From assembly GCA_017429475.1 (NCBI GenBank), contig JAFROX010000009.1:291543-355542 (forward strand): a stretch of DNA of 64,000 nt. Reading direction: 5' to 3'. The notes under the pieces were generated by a model. It saw only the letters and a program-made list of their open reading frames with translations. It was not told the DNA's origin and made no database searches. Positions 26,860 to 32,615 of this stretch are shown piece after piece. Position 1 is the stretch's first letter. Every line of letters begins with the position of its first letter. The DNA comes from Bacteroidales bacterium. Its GTDB lineage: Bacteria > Bacteroidota > Bacteroidia > Bacteroidales > UBA932. Position numbers and translations under genes: made by a program.

Positions 26860-27853
26860 AGAAATAACTGACTTTTTGCTTTTCGGCACGCAATGCGAGG
26901 TTCCTGTCGTTACGCAGGGTGCTATAGCATTCGACTGCAGCGCTGAGGGACGGATCCACGAATATCACATCGTCTGCCAGTATGCTGCGGTAAGGATATG
27001 TTCCGTTAACGAACATGCTGCGGTATCTTTCAAGCATTGAATTGCAGCCCGTGCGGAACTCTTCGTCCAAGCCTTCCACCATAATCACTTTCAGCGGCGA
27101 CTTGGAATTGTCGACGCGAAGGTTGTCGATTATCCGAGCCAGACCTTCCAGTTTGTCACCTCCTCCGATGAGGGAAATGGACCTGGTATTGCCGTTTTCC
27201 GCAGCGACCTTCCTGATTGCCTCGGAATATGCCTTTACGGCGTCGTGGCTGCTGTCGCTAAGGGCAGCTACGGTGAATGCGGAAATGTTGTCGGCAGCCA
27301 GGGAATCGAACATAGCCCGCACACCTGCTTCCATTTCTGAAACGGCCTTGACTCCGGCCACGTTATGGCTGCAGAGGGTTTCCAAATCGTCAAGACCGTC
27401 AGCAGCGGTCAGATATCCTCCCGCAACCACTATCTTGGAGCGCTCCTTCTCAGAAGAATCCCAGTAGCGGTCCTTCATCAGGAAAAGCGCGCTGTAGAAA
27501 CAATCGTCGTCGCTTGCTGCTGTATAGTACTGGAAATGCTCTCCGGCGAAATCGGCGATGCCGTCACTGCGGCGTGCACCGGTAATATTGTCGAAGCAAT
27601 CCATCGCGGTGATCGTCTCGAGCAATGTCATGCTGGTAGAGTCGGCATCGAAGATGCCTATCGGCAGGTTTCTCAACTCTCCGTAATTGGAAAAATCCAC
27701 AAAATTTACGGAAGCTGTGTCATACATCACGGTATGTACGGCTTCAGGCAAGATTACTTCAGACTGTTCGGTCCGCTGCCTGCAGCCACAGAAGAGCACT
27801 GAAGTCAGGCAAAGGACAGCCAGAAGTCTATTTCCGATATGTGAACTTTCCAT
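26849..27853 (-). CDS. Putative lipoprotein of unknown function
   Basis: 334 residues. The N-terminus RLLAVLCLTSVLFCGCRQR is a lipoprotein-type signal with Cys after FCG. The rest is soluble, mixed alpha/beta, with acidic surface and no motif I can assign. Segments such as KIVVAGGYLTAADGLDDLE, NTRSISLIGGGDKLEGLA and PLKVIMVEGLDEEF alternate hydrophobic strands and helices, which recalls a Rossmann-like or periplasmic-binding-type fold; this is a guess. It overlaps purM by 26 bases and the exonuclease by 11 bases, so it is tied to both by translation. Confidence 0.65.
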   Translation of the reverse strand: MESSHIGNRLLAVLCLTSVLFCGCRQRTEQSEVILPEAVHTVMYDTASVNFVDFSNYGELRNLPIGIFDADSTSMTLLETITAMDCFDNITGARRSDGIADFAGEHFQYYTAASDDDCFYSALFLMKDRYWDSSEKERSKIVVAGGYLTAADGLDDLETLCSHNVAGVKAVSEMEAGVRAMFDSLAADNISAFTVAALSDSSHDAVKAYSEAIRKVAAENGNTRSISLIGGGDKLEGLARIIDNLRVDNSKSPLKVIMVEGLDEEFRTGCNSMLERYRSMFVNGTYPYRSILADDVIFVDPSLSAAVECYSTLRNDRNLALRAEKQKVSYFYGF

Positions 27854-29009
27854 ATTCTGACTCTATGATGACTTTGGTATCTTCAGACGCCTCCACCCTG
27901 CCTATGGTGCGGGCTTCGATGCCATATTTCGCACTGATGGCGGCAAGGTCTCCGGCGATGGCTTCGGGGACATAGAGTTCAAGCCTGTGGCCCATATTGA
28001 ACACTTTGTACATTTCATCCCACGGAGTTCCGCTTTCCTGCTGTATGGCACGGAACAGAGGAGGCACCGGGAACATATTGTCCTTGATGACCGTGAGTCC
28101 GTCCACGAAATGAAGCACCTTGGTCTGGGCGCCGCCCGAGCAGTGGATCATTCCGTGTATGTCGCGACGGTGAGTTGCAAGCATCTCTTTCACTACCGGA
28201 GCATAGGTGCGGGTCGGAGAAAGGACGAGCTTTCCATAGGTCACGCCTGTCTCTGGCTCGATTTCGGTCAGCGAGCGGCTTCCGCAGTATACAAATTCAG
28301 AAGGTGTATGTGCATCGTAGCTGTCGGGATACTTCTCCGCGAGGTATTTTCCGAACACGTCGTGACGGGCGCTGGTAAGGCCGTTGCTGCCCATACCGCC
28401 GTTGTAACTGTCCTCATACACAGCCTGTCCATAGCTTGCAAGTGCCACTATCACATCGCCTGCGGCTATGTTGGCATTGTCTATGACATCAGCCCTTCGC
28501 ATACGGGCGACCACCGTGCTGTCGACGATTATGGTGCGCACCAAGTCGCCTACATCTGCTGTTTCACCGCCGGTCAGGACCATGTCGATGCCGTACTCGC
28601 GCATCTTTTCCATAAAGGAAACAGAGCCTGATATCACCGCTGAGATCACTTTGCCGGGAATCAGGTTCTTGTTGCGTCCTATTGTGGAAGAAAGGAGTAT
28701 GTTGTCGGTCGCTCCTACGCACAGCAGGTCGTCGGTGTTCATCACTATCGCATCCTGCGCGATACCGGCCCAGACATCCATATCTCCGGTTTCCTTCCAA
28801 TAGAGATATGCCAGAGAACTCTTGGTACCCGCTCCGTCGGCGTGCATCACCACGCACCAGTCGGGATCGCCTCCCAGGTAGTCCGGCTCAATTTTGCAGA
28901 AAGCCTTCGGATACAACCCTTTGTCGAGCTTGGAAATGGCCTTGTGCACATCTTCTTTCGAAGAGGACACGCCCCTTTGTGCATATCTGTTCGCTTCGGT
29001 GTCTTTCAT
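27828..29009 (-). CDS. purM: Phosphoribosylformylglycinamidine cyclo-ligase (AIR synthase)
   Basis: 393 residues, longer than the 345 of E. coli PurM but usual for Bacteroidota. PurM closes the imidazole ring of aminoimidazole ribotide using ATP. Visible motifs are VVMHADGAGTKSSLAYLY, MNTDDLLCVGA with acidic residues for the nucleotide, VLTGGETADVGDLV and GMIHCSGGAQTKVLHFVDG. The ATG at 29009 follows a TAAATTTG element by only four bases. First gene of a four-gene run (purM, lipoprotein, exonuclease, 7TM-HD). Confidence 0.95.
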   Translation of the reverse strand: MKDTEANRYAQRGVSSSKEDVHKAISKLDKGLYPKAFCKIEPDYLGGDPDWCVVMHADGAGTKSSLAYLYWKETGDMDVWAGIAQDAIVMNTDDLLCVGATDNILLSSTIGRNKNLIPGKVISAVISGSVSFMEKMREYGIDMVLTGGETADVGDLVRTIIVDSTVVARMRRADVIDNANIAAGDVIVALASYGQAVYEDSYNGGMGSNGLTSARHDVFGKYLAEKYPDSYDAHTPSEFVYCGSRSLTEIEPETGVTYGKLVLSPTRTYAPVVKEMLATHRRDIHGMIHCSGGAQTKVLHFVDGLTVIKDNMFPVPPLFRAIQQESGTPWDEMYKVFNMGHRLELYVPEAIAGDLAAISAKYGIEARTIGRVEASEDTKVIIESEYGKFTYRK

Positions 29010-29013
29010 ACCG

Positions 29014-29021
29014 CAAATTTA
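29014..29021 (-). promoter_or_regulatory. -7 element of purM
   Basis: TAAATTTG on the minus strand, ending four bases before the purM ATG, which predicts a leaderless mRNA. The region expected to hold the -33 element falls inside the left arm of the 163-base palindrome. Confidence 0.55.
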
Positions 29022-29022
29022 C

Positions 29023-29185
29023 GAATCTGTTTTGAAATAATTAACTTCAATATCTAATATCTATTCCCGTGCTTTTACGCGGTTATCTCGGTTACATAGT
29101 ACCCGACTATGCGCCCTCGACAACCACAAAAAATCATCAGGAATATATTCTTATCTATTCTCGCGAATCATTTCAAAACAGATTC
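29023..29185. repeat. 163-base imperfect palindrome, candidate MITE or cruciform
   Basis: Outer arms 29023-29042 (beginning GAATCTG) and 29166-29185 are inverted copies matching at 19 of 20 bases. The similarity continues inward: aligning the whole left half with the reverse complement of the right half by eye gives about 57 identities in 78 pairs, ending in a perfect hairpin CATAGT-ACCCG-ACTATG (29095-29111) at the centre. It fills most of the purM/aminotransferase intergenic region. Neither arm contains TAnnTTTG. No clear target duplication is seen at the ends. A transposon-derived miniature element, a paired operator or a structural element are possible. Confidence 0.75.
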
Positions 29186-29208
29186 CGTCATTTTTTACTT
29201 CTTTTTTG

Positions 29209-29216
29209 TACTTTTG
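29209..29216 (+). promoter_or_regulatory. -7 element of the aminotransferase gene
   Basis: TACTTTTG matches TAnnTTTG and lies 31 bases before the ATG at 29248. It is 23 bases beyond the right arm of the 163-base palindrome. No TTTG at the -33 position. Confidence 0.5.
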
Positions 29217-29247
29217 CGCAATCTCGAACACTCGAATTACAAAGACA

Positions 29248-30447
29248 ATGCTTACAGTATCAAACCAAGCCCTGAACCTCCCCGTATCAGCCATCAGAAG
29301 ACTGATCCCTTACGCTGACGCAGCCACCGAGCGCGGCATCAAAGTGTATCACCTCAACATGGGGCAGCCTGACGTCGATTCGTCTCCTCAGGCTCTGGCC
29401 GCAGTCAAGGAAAACCAGATGCACGTTCTGGGATACACCAACTCAGCCGGCGACAAGGCATTGAGGGAAGGCATGGTCAAGTATTATGAACATCTCGGCA
29501 TCGAGCTGACCACCGACTGCATCATCGCCACCCACGGCGGAAGCGAAGCGCTCCAGATCGCAATCGCCGCAACCTGCGACCCCGAGGATGAACTGATAGT
29601 GTTCGAACCCTTCTACACCAACTACAACACCTTCGCCGTCCAGAACAATGTCATCCTGCGTCCCATCACCACCCACATCGAAGACGGATTCAAACTTCCC
29701 GAGATGTCGGAGATTGAGAAGCATATCACCAAGAAGACCAAAGGCATCCTGTTCTGCAACCCCAACAACCCCACAGGCTGCCTCTACAGCCGCGAGGATA
29801 TCGAGAAGATCGGCCAGATCGCGAAGAAACACGAACTCTTCATCTATTCCGACGAGGTATACCGCGAATTCTGCTACACAGACGATCCCCACTTCTCTGC
29901 CCTTCAGCTCGAAGGTCTTGAAGAGAACGTGATCCTGCTCGACTCCGTTTCCAAGAGATACAGCCTCTGCGGCGCACGCATCGGATTCGTCGTTTCAAGG
30001 AATCTCGAGGTAATGAAATATGTGCTCCGCTACGCCCAGGCCCGCCTGTGCGTTTCCACTTATGGCCAGATAGCTTCCGTGGGCGCTCTCGACACTCCGA
30101 AGTCATACTTCAGCAAGGTCCGCAAGGAATACATCCACCGCCGCGACATTCTGCTCGAAGAGGTATCGAAGATGGAAGGTGTCATCTGCCCCGTTCCGAA
30201 CGGTGCTTTCTATGCCGCAGCCGAGCTGCCGGTCGACGATGCCGAAAGGTTCGCCATCTGGCTTCTGAACGATTTCAACATCGACGGCAAGACCGTCCAG
30301 GTGACTCCGATGGCCGGTTTCTACGCGACCAAGGGTATGGGCAAGAGGCAGGTGCGCCTGGCTTACGTACTCAAGGAGCCGGATCTGCGCGAAGCTTGCC
30401 GCTGCCTGAAAGCCGGCCTCGAGGCTTATCCCCATCGCTTGTCATAA
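29248..30447 (+). CDS. PLP-dependent aspartate-type aminotransferase
   Basis: 399 residues from the ATG at 29248; an upstream in-frame ATG at 29206 starts before the promoter element and was rejected. Fold-type I, class I aminotransferase: NPNNPTG with the cofactor Asn, YSDEVYREF with the pyridine-ring Asp and Tyr, and SVSKRYSLCGARIGF with the Schiff-base Lys. The closest named relatives are aspartate aminotransferases of the AspB group; the amino-acid substrate cannot be fixed from these motifs. Ends before a strong terminator, so it is monocistronic. Confidence 0.92.
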   Translation: MLTVSNQALNLPVSAIRRLIPYADAATERGIKVYHLNMGQPDVDSSPQALAAVKENQMHVLGYTNSAGDKALREGMVKYYEHLGIELTTDCIIATHGGSEALQIAIAATCDPEDELIVFEPFYTNYNTFAVQNNVILRPITTHIEDGFKLPEMSEIEKHITKKTKGILFCNPNNPTGCLYSREDIEKIGQIAKKHELFIYSDEVYREFCYTDDPHFSALQLEGLEENVILLDSVSKRYSLCGARIGFVVSRNLEVMKYVLRYAQARLCVSTYGQIASVGALDTPKSYFSKVRKEYIHRRDILLEEVSKMEGVICPVPNGAFYAAAELPVDDAERFAIWLLNDFNIDGKTVQVTPMAGFYATKGMGKRQVRLAYVLKEPDLREACRCLKAGLEAYPHRLS

Positions 30448-30467
30448 GTGATCTGTAACAAGACTGG

Positions 30468-30510
30468 AACCCCGGCAATCCGATAGGAATGCCGGGGTTT
30501 CGTTTTGTTT
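30468..30510 (+). terminator. Terminator of the aminotransferase gene
   Basis: AACCCCGGCA (30468-30477), a 12-base loop and TGCCGGGGTT (30490-30499), followed by a T-rich run to 30510. Only the plus strand has the T-run, so it acts for the aminotransferase. Confidence 0.88.
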
Positions 30511-30518
30511 AAGGTTTG

Positions 30519-32615
30519 CTACCTTCCACCTGGGCCGCCAGGACCTCCACCTCCGGGACCGCCGATGCCGGGACCTCCGCCGAAACCTCCGTTTCCTCCT
30601 GTATAACCAGAGATTGCGACTGATGTGCCGCCTGTGATGCCGGCCGTTGCCCATATGCCGTTGCATTCGGTTTCACCACTCACGCTTACGCCCTTGTATC
30701 CACTTGATAGAGAAGGTGCCGACACGATGAAACTTGAGATGCCGGCCGGAGCCTTGAACGCTGCGATGAAGGCTTTGCCGTCAAAGAGTGCATTCCAGGC
30801 ATTCGCAGTACCGCTCATGCTGTACACGCTCTGAGTGGCGGAATAACCGTTTTCCAGACCACCGTATGCCACTACTGTAGCGCCATTGTTGATATAGAGT
30901 TTCTTCCCTTCCTCAGTATTGGCATCAATAGCCACCTCGGCCCCGCCACAGGTACAGATCGCCATCAAATAGCCACCGTTCAATATTGTGTTGCCGTTGG
31001 AGTCCATTGCATCGTTTCCGGCAGAATATGCGTAGACATAGCCGCCGTTCACGGTAAGGTCGCCCTGGCAGTTGATGGCATCTTCGGCAGTCGACGAAAC
31101 ATATGTCTGGCCGCCTTCAAAAGTAAGGTCACCTTTAACCTCAAGACCTTCGCCATAAGTGCTGTTGACGATGACTGTGCCTCCGCTGATGCGAAGTTTT
31201 CCCGCATATCCCGTCACGGTTGCCCGGTCCCCGCTGCCTGTCTTTGTCACCCAGCCGATCTTGATTCCCTTGGCCGACACGTCGTTAGATTCACGTCCGG
31301 TGGTCGTCACAGTCAGGGTACCGCCTGAGATGTAACTGTCAGAAAGGGTGTGGTTTTCTGCATCAAAATCATAGCTGCCGGCATTGATGCCTTTACCGCC
31401 GTCACCTGTGTTCCTGATTGTGAGCGCGCCACCGGTCATAGCGAAATAGTTGTCCGCCTTGATGCCTGCCGTGCCGGAATATTCGGCGTCTTCATCGTCA
31501 TATGCCACTCCGCCGCTGACCGTTACCATATGGGTGCCGCCTTCCACAAGCACATAATCGTCCGTGCTGATTCCTTTCTTCAACGCAGCTTCTGTAGAAA
31601 TCACCAGCGCTCCGCTTGTCAGCTGCACATAGTCCTTGCCACTGAGTCCGTGGCCGGCGGAACTTCCTGAACTGACCTTGATTGTGGGGCTGTCCATCAG
31701 ACGGATGTAATCGTCGGTGGCAATTCCGGCCTTGCCCTGGGCATTGAGGGCATTGACGGTGAGCAGTCCGCTGCCGCTGAAAATGAGCTGGGCTTCGCTG
31801 AACAGAACTGCCTTCAAATCTTCCTCTCCTACCTGAGCATAGGCTGCCGCCGCACCGTCGGAGAGGGTATTGGTTCCATTGACTACGATGAAAGTGCGTT
31901 TCTTGTTCTGGTTGTTGAGCGCAGCTCCGTCAGGGTTGGTGATGCTGACACCATTCAGCACGATGGCCTGTTTCTTCGCCCCATATACCTTGAAAAATCC
32001 GTTGGAAGTGGAGCCGGTGAGTTCATATATGAGCACTTCTCCGCCAGTATTGTTGACGGTGACTTTATTACCGTCCACGCTCACGTAGCCATAGCTGTCA
32101 CCTGTGACAGCAGCGTCTCCATTGTCTGAAAAGGCAATCTTTATCCTGCCTTTGAATGTGGTATTCGAAATGTCATCTTCGGACTCGCTGTCACCAGTCG
32201 AGGAGAAAGTCAGCGATTCGTCGTCAGACTCACTGCCGGAAGCACTCAGTACCGTCAGCATATATGAAGCTATGGATGCCGAATATGAGCCGTCGGCCTC
32301 GGAACTGGCAGAGATCATTGTTGTGCCTTTGCCGACAAGGGCTATTGAGCCGTTGGAACTGACAGTTGCAACTGCAGGATTGGAAGAAGTGTACGTAACA
32401 CCCACTTTGAATTTATTCACCAGTGTGGGGAAGGTGTTTTCTGCGCCGATGGTCGCCTCAAAGGAATCGTTGCTCCAGGCAAGGGCAGGATCGGTAAGTT
32501 CCGAAACGAGCTGGTCTCCTCCAAAGAATCCGCCTGGTTTGAACGGGAAATCTTCATCCGAGCAAGCTACCGCCACCAGCGCCATCGTTACAATCAGATA
32601 TATTATTTTTCTCAT
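30519..32615 (-). CDS. Carbohydrate-binding (Cthe_2159-like) lipoprotein with Ig-like domain
   Basis: 698 residues from the ATG at 32615. MRKIIYLIVTMALVAVAC is a lipoprotein signal. Residues about 60-135 resemble a bacterial Ig-like (BIG2) domain: ASSEADGSYSASIASYMLTV. From about 165 to 600 the repetitive pattern of GISTDDYVLVEGG, GIKADNYFAMTGG and AEDAINCQGDLTVNGG builds a right-handed beta helix as in the Cthe_2159 carbohydrate-binding family (PF14262). The C-terminus is a Gly/Pro tail of about 25 residues. It is probably surface exposed and binds polysaccharide; enzymatic activity is unproven. Divergent from a kinase/LytTR pair, which likely controls it. Confidence 0.85.
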   Translation of the reverse strand: MRKIIYLIVTMALVAVACSDEDFPFKPGGFFGGDQLVSELTDPALAWSNDSFEATIGAENTFPTLVNKFKVGVTYTSSNPAVATVSSNGSIALVGKGTTMISASSEADGSYSASIASYMLTVLSASGSESDDESLTFSSTGDSESEDDISNTTFKGRIKIAFSDNGDAAVTGDSYGYVSVDGNKVTVNNTGGEVLIYELTGSTSNGFFKVYGAKKQAIVLNGVSITNPDGAALNNQNKKRTFIVVNGTNTLSDGAAAAYAQVGEEDLKAVLFSEAQLIFSGSGLLTVNALNAQGKAGIATDDYIRLMDSPTIKVSSGSSAGHGLSGKDYVQLTSGALVISTEAALKKGISTDDYVLVEGGTHMVTVSGGVAYDDEDAEYSGTAGIKADNYFAMTGGALTIRNTGDGGKGINAGSYDFDAENHTLSDSYISGGTLTVTTTGRESNDVSAKGIKIGWVTKTGSGDRATVTGYAGKLRISGGTVIVNSTYGEGLEVKGDLTFEGGQTYVSSTAEDAINCQGDLTVNGGYVYAYSAGNDAMDSNGNTILNGGYLMAICTCGGAEVAIDANTEEGKKLYINNGATVVAYGGLENGYSATQSVYSMSGTANAWNALFDGKAFIAAFKAPAGISSFIVSAPSLSSGYKGVSVSGETECNGIWATAGITGGTSVAISGYTGGNGGFGGGPGIGGPGGGGPGGPGGR

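Follow-up and report, generated by a model that had tools for sequence, protein, structure and literature searches.

A 163-bp hairpin beside purM is very probably a copy of a large Bacteroidales MITE family with a strand-preferring fold

A near-palindrome between purM and an aminotransferase gene

What explains a long near-palindrome in the gap between a housekeeping gene and its divergent neighbour? We addressed this question in a 64,000-nucleotide stretch of a Bacteroidales genome (the window), where 238 bases separate the start of purM (29009, - strand) from the ATG of an aminotransferase gene (29248) and the 163 bases from 29023 to 29185 form the palindrome. A first-pass annotation had given these coordinates correctly and had proposed a MITE-like remnant, a pair of operators, or a cruciform or structured RNA. 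The features discussed below are as follows.

27828..29009, - strand: purM-like gene carrying the AIRS and AIRS_C domains; on the sense strand it follows downstream of the element
29014..29021, - strand: -7-like box of purM, CAAATTTA on the + strand and TAAATTTG on the - strand, one base outside the element
29022..29022, no strand: extra base C on the left side, missing from the empty site of relatives
29023..29185, - strand (the sense, or folding, strand): very probable MITE copy of 163 bp, recognized by its arms, folding and family matches
29023..29042, + strand: left terminal inverted repeat GAATCTGTTTTGAAATAATT, from the repeat finder, with similar ends on MITE copies elsewhere
29087..29118, - strand: apical core module GAGGGCGC-ATAG...CTAT-GTAACCGAG, whose opposed non-standard positions recur across the family
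29095..29111, - strand: terminal 6-bp hairpin with a 5-base loop, from sequence and folding
29166..29185, - strand: right terminal inverted repeat, 19/20 identical to the left repeat
29186..29188, no strand: extra bases CGT on the right side, missing from the empty site and presumably a decayed target duplication
29209..29216, + strand: -7-like box of the aminotransferase gene, TACTTTTG, present in the three close relatives aligned
29248..30447, + strand: divergent class I/II aminotransferase gene, from annotation and domain search

The palindrome is real. Inspection of the sequence and a repeat finder (arms 29023-29057 and 29151-29185, 77% complementary) both bore out the inverted match at 19 of the outer 20 bases reported earlier, and strand-neutral pairing of the 78 opposed positions reproduced the 57 identities as Watson-Crick pairs, alongside seven G.T, one A.C and 13 other combinations. 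The centre consists of the perfect 6-bp hairpin that had been described, CATAGT-ACCCG-ACTATG (29095-29111). Folding of 29013-29195 yielded -40.2 kcal/mol for the + strand (z = -5.5) and -71.7 kcal/mol for the - strand (z = -10.0); none of 200 shuffles equalled either value, in line with the claim that the palindrome lies far beyond chance. The better-folding strand is thus the - strand, which is also the sense strand of purM, an asymmetry absent from the first-pass annotation. In part, the energy gap arises because an opposed G/T becomes G.U on one strand and A.C on the other (7 vs 1).

The element is missing from the same site in related genomes

The empty site that the first-pass annotation had proposed to look for was found in six of 25 congeners, where the flanks of the element lie only 1-4 nt apart: 1 nt in G019, G004, G014 and G001, and 4 nt in G022 and G002, which leave 13 further bases of the right flank of the window copy unaligned. 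In the base-by-base alignment, which covered three of the six, the empty site of L331 reads GCAAATTTA|CATTTT, and the filled site differs from it by the addition of C, the 163 bp and CGT. The presence of an empty site in congeners indicates that the element inserted in the lineage of the window, and the oddity beside a housekeeping gene is explained as an insertion of that lineage. The window copy accounts for 167 bases more than the empty site against 166 expected, that is, four extra bases against three, and its own flanks (TAC on the left and CGT on the right, + strand) do not follow the TNA pattern described below. Its duplication is no longer readable and has presumably decayed. This copy was the single one found in its own genome, which is 80% complete. 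Contig C183 of the close relative G005 starts exactly with the first base after the insertion (29189), perhaps because an element at this position interrupted the assembly.

Dispersed copies of nearly fixed size form a large family

The annotation had named a family of 150-170-base elements as the hallmark of a MITE, and our searches recovered such a family. By blastn, matches occurred in 10 of 60 genomes of relatives, the own genome included, with a short match only in G007, G042 and G056. Of the 299 genomes of the taxonomic family, 41 contained matches to a first covariance model built from 11 copies, the own genome among them; they represent 10 of 25 genera, with matches per genome reaching at least nine; since the scans scored only 9 or 14 candidates per genome under strict filters, with matches on both strands counted, these counts are lower bounds. 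An exact two-arm pattern retrieved 107 stretches in genome contigs. Among the 80 of these 107 whose titles were listed, most came from uncultured Bacteroidales, many of them from rumen and horse faeces; the hosts included Candidatus Cryptobacteroides, Cacconaster, Colenecus and Equibacterium, and single records of Saprospiraceae, Sphingobacteriales and "Bacteroidetes" also appeared.

Size varies very little: it was 158-166 bp in 99 of 100 strict copies, when the patterns allowed 152-180 (these 100 derive from the 107 stretches after omission of seven without a strict match; L268 holds an N and L262 has no left flank). Shortened derivatives of about 123 bp (L008) and 70 bp (L159/L015) also exist. 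At the other extreme, L098 (G297:C98) spans 234 bases against about 168, three flanking bases on each side counted, and still matches and folds end to end. The arms of L102 (G317:C60:4810-4978) have turned G+C-rich and still pair; a simple ORF call puts this copy inside a 1347-base frame. In G530, two exactly abutting, opposite model matches of about 328 bp jointly occur at five places (C11:1137990-1138317, 333456-333783 and 686561-686888; C13:51323-51650; C6:6856-7183), possibly a composite element.

For the target sites, 80 regions chosen by hand among the covariance-model matches, together with other loci, gave 157 matches in 91 sources; after removal of 66 antisense duplicates and the contig-end partials L085-L089, 86 were analysed, of which 81 were full length. 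Identical flanking 3-mers surrounded 46 of these 81 copies, and all 46 were TNA (27 TTA, 10 TAA, 5 TCA and 4 TGA), compared with a mean of 19.3 and a maximum of 33 identical flanks in 10,000 permutations. In the set of 100 copies, which overlaps the first, 65 had identical flanks (63 TNA and two TAT).

A larger set of 161 copies, reduced from 177 by removing N-containing sequences and exact duplicates, showed no orientation preference relative to neighbouring genes: 38 were sense and 39 antisense, 42 lay between divergent and 18 between convergent genes, and one was inside a frame, while 23 were not classed (20 near contig ends and three without a neighbour). Many copies lie directly against the end of an adjacent frame, with gaps of 0 or -1. 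TAA and TGA both fit TNA, so insertions at frame ends could preserve the stop codon.

An IS5-type insertion sequence with matching ends is the likely mover

A PF01609 search of copy-bearing genomes pointed to a G064 transposase with its stop codon inside an end of ...AAATTTAAACAGATTC-TAA type. Relatives of this transposase were detected in 26 of 299 genomes, none of which belongs to the genus of the window. The clearest case, L194, is a whole element of 871 bp (1490-2360) bounded by GAAACTGTTTAAATTTTATT and ...AATTTAAACAGATTC and flanked by TTA on both sides; its frame encodes a 256-aa IS5 transposase that scores 220 bits against NF033580 (transpos_IS5_3; cut-off 110). A 903-bp element, L201, has a frame altered near its 3' end and begins with GAAGCTGTTTTGAAAT, a start common to many MITE copies. 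The first 16 bases of copy L003 were matched exactly by L201 in blastn, and the outer 16 bases of the left repeat in the window differ from the L201 end at one position. The IS5-type elements share with our family the ends GAA(A/G)CTGTTT... and, in L194, L196 and L197, a TNA duplication, but they are 871-903 bp long, carry a transposase frame and lack the hairpin core. Both ends were visible for eight 871-bp elements of L194 type: L194, L196 and L197 have identical TNA flanks, L192 has AAA/AAA, and the flanks of the remaining four differ.

Several observations bear on how the element and its candidate mover are distributed. In seven genomes of the genus searched with PF01609, matches appeared only in G020 and G024, and none of the ends that we looked for lay at these loci. 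Element and partner occur together in six genomes against about 3.6 expected, a hand count that holds if both genome draws were identical and that lends no support. A search with Pfam DDE_Tnp_4, another candidate mover, gave no match; its controls gave none either, so the search carries no information on this point. When pieces of the 161 copies were compared with three IS elements by blastn, four of 371 fell wholly inside positions 31 to n-30.

Taken together, the dispersed copies of near-fixed size, the terminal inverted repeats, the TNA duplications, the empty site and the IS5-type element with matching ends make it very probable that the palindrome is a MITE, a non-autonomous mobile element, and belongs to a large Bacteroidales family; of the explanations first proposed, the MITE is the one that these data support, and a matched pair of operators drew no support from the analysis. 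An IS5 derivation is consistent with the ends and the duplication of a transposase-bearing element (NF033580 at L194, flanked TTA/TTA), and a lack of coding capacity with the 163-bp size, with two open frames of the family that have no coding match, and with a window copy that has no long frame. Judging from the shared ends, the 871-903-bp insertion sequence, known here from other genera, is the likely mover, and an IS5-type DDE transposase (NF033580 / DUF4096 + DDE_Tnp_1) would have cut and pasted the element in trans.

The body covaries as a hairpin of one preferred strand

In 51 copies fitted to the model (alignment A2), 93.5% of cells pair and 44 of 55 pairs show two-sided changes. The number of two-sided-change cells was 432, compared with 130 +/- 10 in shuffles and 53-89 in slid-partner controls; model-fitted alignments lean towards the modelled structure, and the relatedness of copies also affects covariation. 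RNAalifold, applied to the same alignment, found two-sided changes in 38 of 49 pairs. With relatedness and model fitting taken into account, the family thus has a covarying consensus structure.

Strand-neutral pairing of 42 cluster representatives revealed 192 G.U against 64 A.C. By cluster, 36 were G.U-rich, two A.C-rich and four equal, a between-cluster count that shared descent inflates. Within clusters, distinct one-sided changes comprised 62 to G.U and 41 to A.C (p = 0.048), plus 63 to other mismatches, and 43 two-sided changes preserved a Watson-Crick pair. The two strands differed by at least 15 kcal/mol in 33 of 42 representatives, compared with 4% of simulated unbiased palindromes. 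That the sense strand folds better is partly so by construction, because it was picked by model score or fold energy; a sequence motif gives the same direction in 117 of 161 copies and the opposite direction in none, and is missing in 44. With DNA parameters the sense strand was again better in 41 of 42 representatives, with a weaker bias. The structured RNA suggested at first is partly supported, by a covarying interior with a strand preference, but the strand bias appears likewise with DNA parameters.

No Rfam family exceeded its gathering threshold on the elements in window positions 27500-31000 or at 19 loci with copies or model matches; a chance-level SNORA81 match (20.5 bits, E = 1.1) overlaps an arm of the window copy. 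Near one distant copy, L363:1174-1342 gave a sub-threshold match to "Vibrio RNA AS7" (62 bits, gathering threshold 90, E = 1.3e-9).

The core recurs in elements with different ends

Elements with other ends, including L131 (GTAATATGAAAA), L355 (GAAGTGATTTAAAC), L356, L364, L138 and L155, keep similar inner motifs: TTTTxGAG opposed to CCxAAAA, and GAxGGxG opposed to GxxACxGA. Single positions of these motifs are often only 60-80% conserved, and the model behind the matches itself scores these letters favourably. The opposed apical pair in the 161 copies was A.G in 84, C.A in 25, A.A in 11 and C.G in three, with 38 not parsed. A second model, from 31 copies (alignment A3), matched 25 of 295 genomes of the order and three of 198 of the phylum, with the own genome among the matches each time; a fuller search of four genomes gave 10-36 matches in each, both strands counted. 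From 80 matches (alignment A4), the best one per source was used (50). Inspection by eye of 28 distant-match loci showed that L365, L366 and L371 resemble unrelated palindromes and that L369 folds better on the other strand; some weak matches of the second model are probably other palindromes. A comparison of the distant copy L361 with plasmid records and of the window copy with phage records gave no match.

As far as the fitted models reach, covariation shows a body apparently maintained as one long hairpin of a preferred strand with recurring internal-loop motifs, even when it carries other ends. The core seems to predate its ends, which may have been exchanged to suit different transposases.

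What maintains the folded strand

We consider it likely that selection acts on the folded strand and aids the persistence or spread of the element. To the idea that this strand acts as RNA made by read-through we give slightly less than even chances. A wider reading is more tentative still: the copies may be Bacteroidota-wide mobile structured RNAs, with one ancient folded core (motifs UUUUxGAG / CCxAAAA and GAxGGxG / GxxACxGA) that borrows the ends of different DNA transposons and whose RNA role favours its carriers or its own movement.

The strongest competitor, which we regard as possible but rather doubtful, needs no strand selection: a MITE that is palindromic by origin would owe its pairing to shared descent and to template-switch correction of quasi-palindromes. 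In bacteria, such elements mostly take the form of long stem-loops, according to the part of PMC2229807 available, and both the weak strand bias of new mismatches within clusters (62:41) and the indifferent orientation to neighbours agree with it. Such correction would, however, yield Watson-Crick pairs, which are equally good on both strands, whereas G.U exceeds A.C 3:1 on one strand and does so in 36 of 42 clusters. Nor does it sit well with internal-loop motifs that recur across different ends, or with a body that is not IS sequence (the 4/371 wholly internal pieces).

A role of the folded strand in the form of single-stranded DNA, such as in the lagging-strand template, is an alternative that we judge unlikely. 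In its favour, DNA too accommodates stable tandem G.A pairs, the sense strand also folds better with DNA parameters, and a promoter scan of the region was not above chance (2 found vs 1.4 expected). Against this, IS5-type DDE transposases, to which the partner belongs, work on double-stranded DNA, and in the single-contig genome G554 the sense strand is on the leading strand for 23 matches and on the lagging strand for 12 (p = 0.09, a non-significant difference, with the replication origin and terminus placed only approximately, by sampled GC skew). The GC skew of G692 was too noisy for such use. Selection on the folded strand, possibly as RNA, is our preferred account.

Relation to known elements

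Bacterial MITEs that form stem-loops, some of them processed by RNase III, are known from the portions of the literature at hand, as are IS5-derived MITEs in P. gingivalis. The latter (BrickBuilt, MITE464/PgRS and MITE239) also reside in Bacteroidales, have IS5-family ends and occur as filled and empty sites between strains, and the MITE464/ISPg4 end GAGACTGTTGCA resembles GAAGCTGTTTTGA; in contrast to our family, BrickBuilt and MITE464 contain tandem repeats, BrickBuilt duplications vary in length, and the available part of the source describes no 163-bp hairpin with a covarying core (PMC4596501). ERIC/IRU/RU-1, YPAL/RU-2 and Correia/NEMIS elements are similar in size (about 100-200 bp), most with terminal repeats, and have stem-loop transcripts and, in some cases, open frames; RNase III cleavage is reported for Correia elements and mRNA effects for ERIC (PMC2229807, PMC10969869, PMC2759123, as far as these were available). 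By their descriptions they differ in belonging to another phylum and, for most, in ending in TA, and the same portions of these sources do not report strand-specific core covariation across exchanged ends; the accessible text of PMC10969869 has no occurrence of "bacteroid". An IS982-derived MITE of Cardinium is likewise from Bacteroidota, and intact copies of its parental IS are proposed to maintain it, but it derives from another IS family and was found in one strain (PMC9769881). Our literature search of open-licence papers returned no report of the present family, and the elements tested had no Rfam match. If the core works as RNA, this would be a bacterial MITE whose body, and not its ends alone, is under selection, and the frequent whole-length hairpin form of bacterial MITEs would become a testable question.

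Possible consequences for the purM locus

The left arm had been said to touch the purM -7 element, and indeed the CAAATTTA box ends one base from it. TAnnTTTG, which we take to be the Bacteroidales -7 box, is the consensus behind both -7-like boxes of the gap. The three close relatives aligned, whose left flanks are 84-89% identical, all have TAnnTTTG at the position of the purM box; the more distant congener G013/L339 does not. With the insertion, an arm of the element has replaced the native sequence directly upstream of the purM box; going by sequence, it is possible that the element affects purM expression.

Domestication of the MITE could also have given purM, and perhaps the aminotransferase gene, a regulatory hairpin or part of a promoter. 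The conserved box beside the arm, the identity of the sense strand with the purM strand and the pairing kept in copies with changed arms (L099, L102, L118, L121 and L122) would fit, but six congeners lack the element, the arm has no correctly spaced -33 box by eye, and in the 1.5 kb of L118, a copy from the close relative G005, neither purM nor the aminotransferase gene was matched, which makes such a role quite improbable.

A 38-residue peptide encoded on the sense strand was considered and rejected as very improbable. An open frame of similar sequence does recur in several subfamilies, but only 44 of 161 copies are open for at least 33 codons, the frame ends after three codons in typical members of the largest cluster and after six in the window copy, stop-free runs of at least 36 codons are found in 21-27 of 42 clusters for antisense frames versus 15 for the sense peptide frame, and the peptide has no Pfam or NCBIfam match.

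Bacteroidales invertible promoters have a similar size and repeat length, but a phase-variable switch flanked by the 20-bp inverted repeats is the least credible reading of all, with a -7-like box outside the repeats, a wholly palindromic interior, a mobile unit absent in relatives, and identically oriented copies where G025, G016 and G006 have a site in common.

Elsewhere at this locus, directly past the aminotransferase gene, positions 30446-30509 of the window form a strong short hairpin with a T-rich tail, perhaps a terminator.
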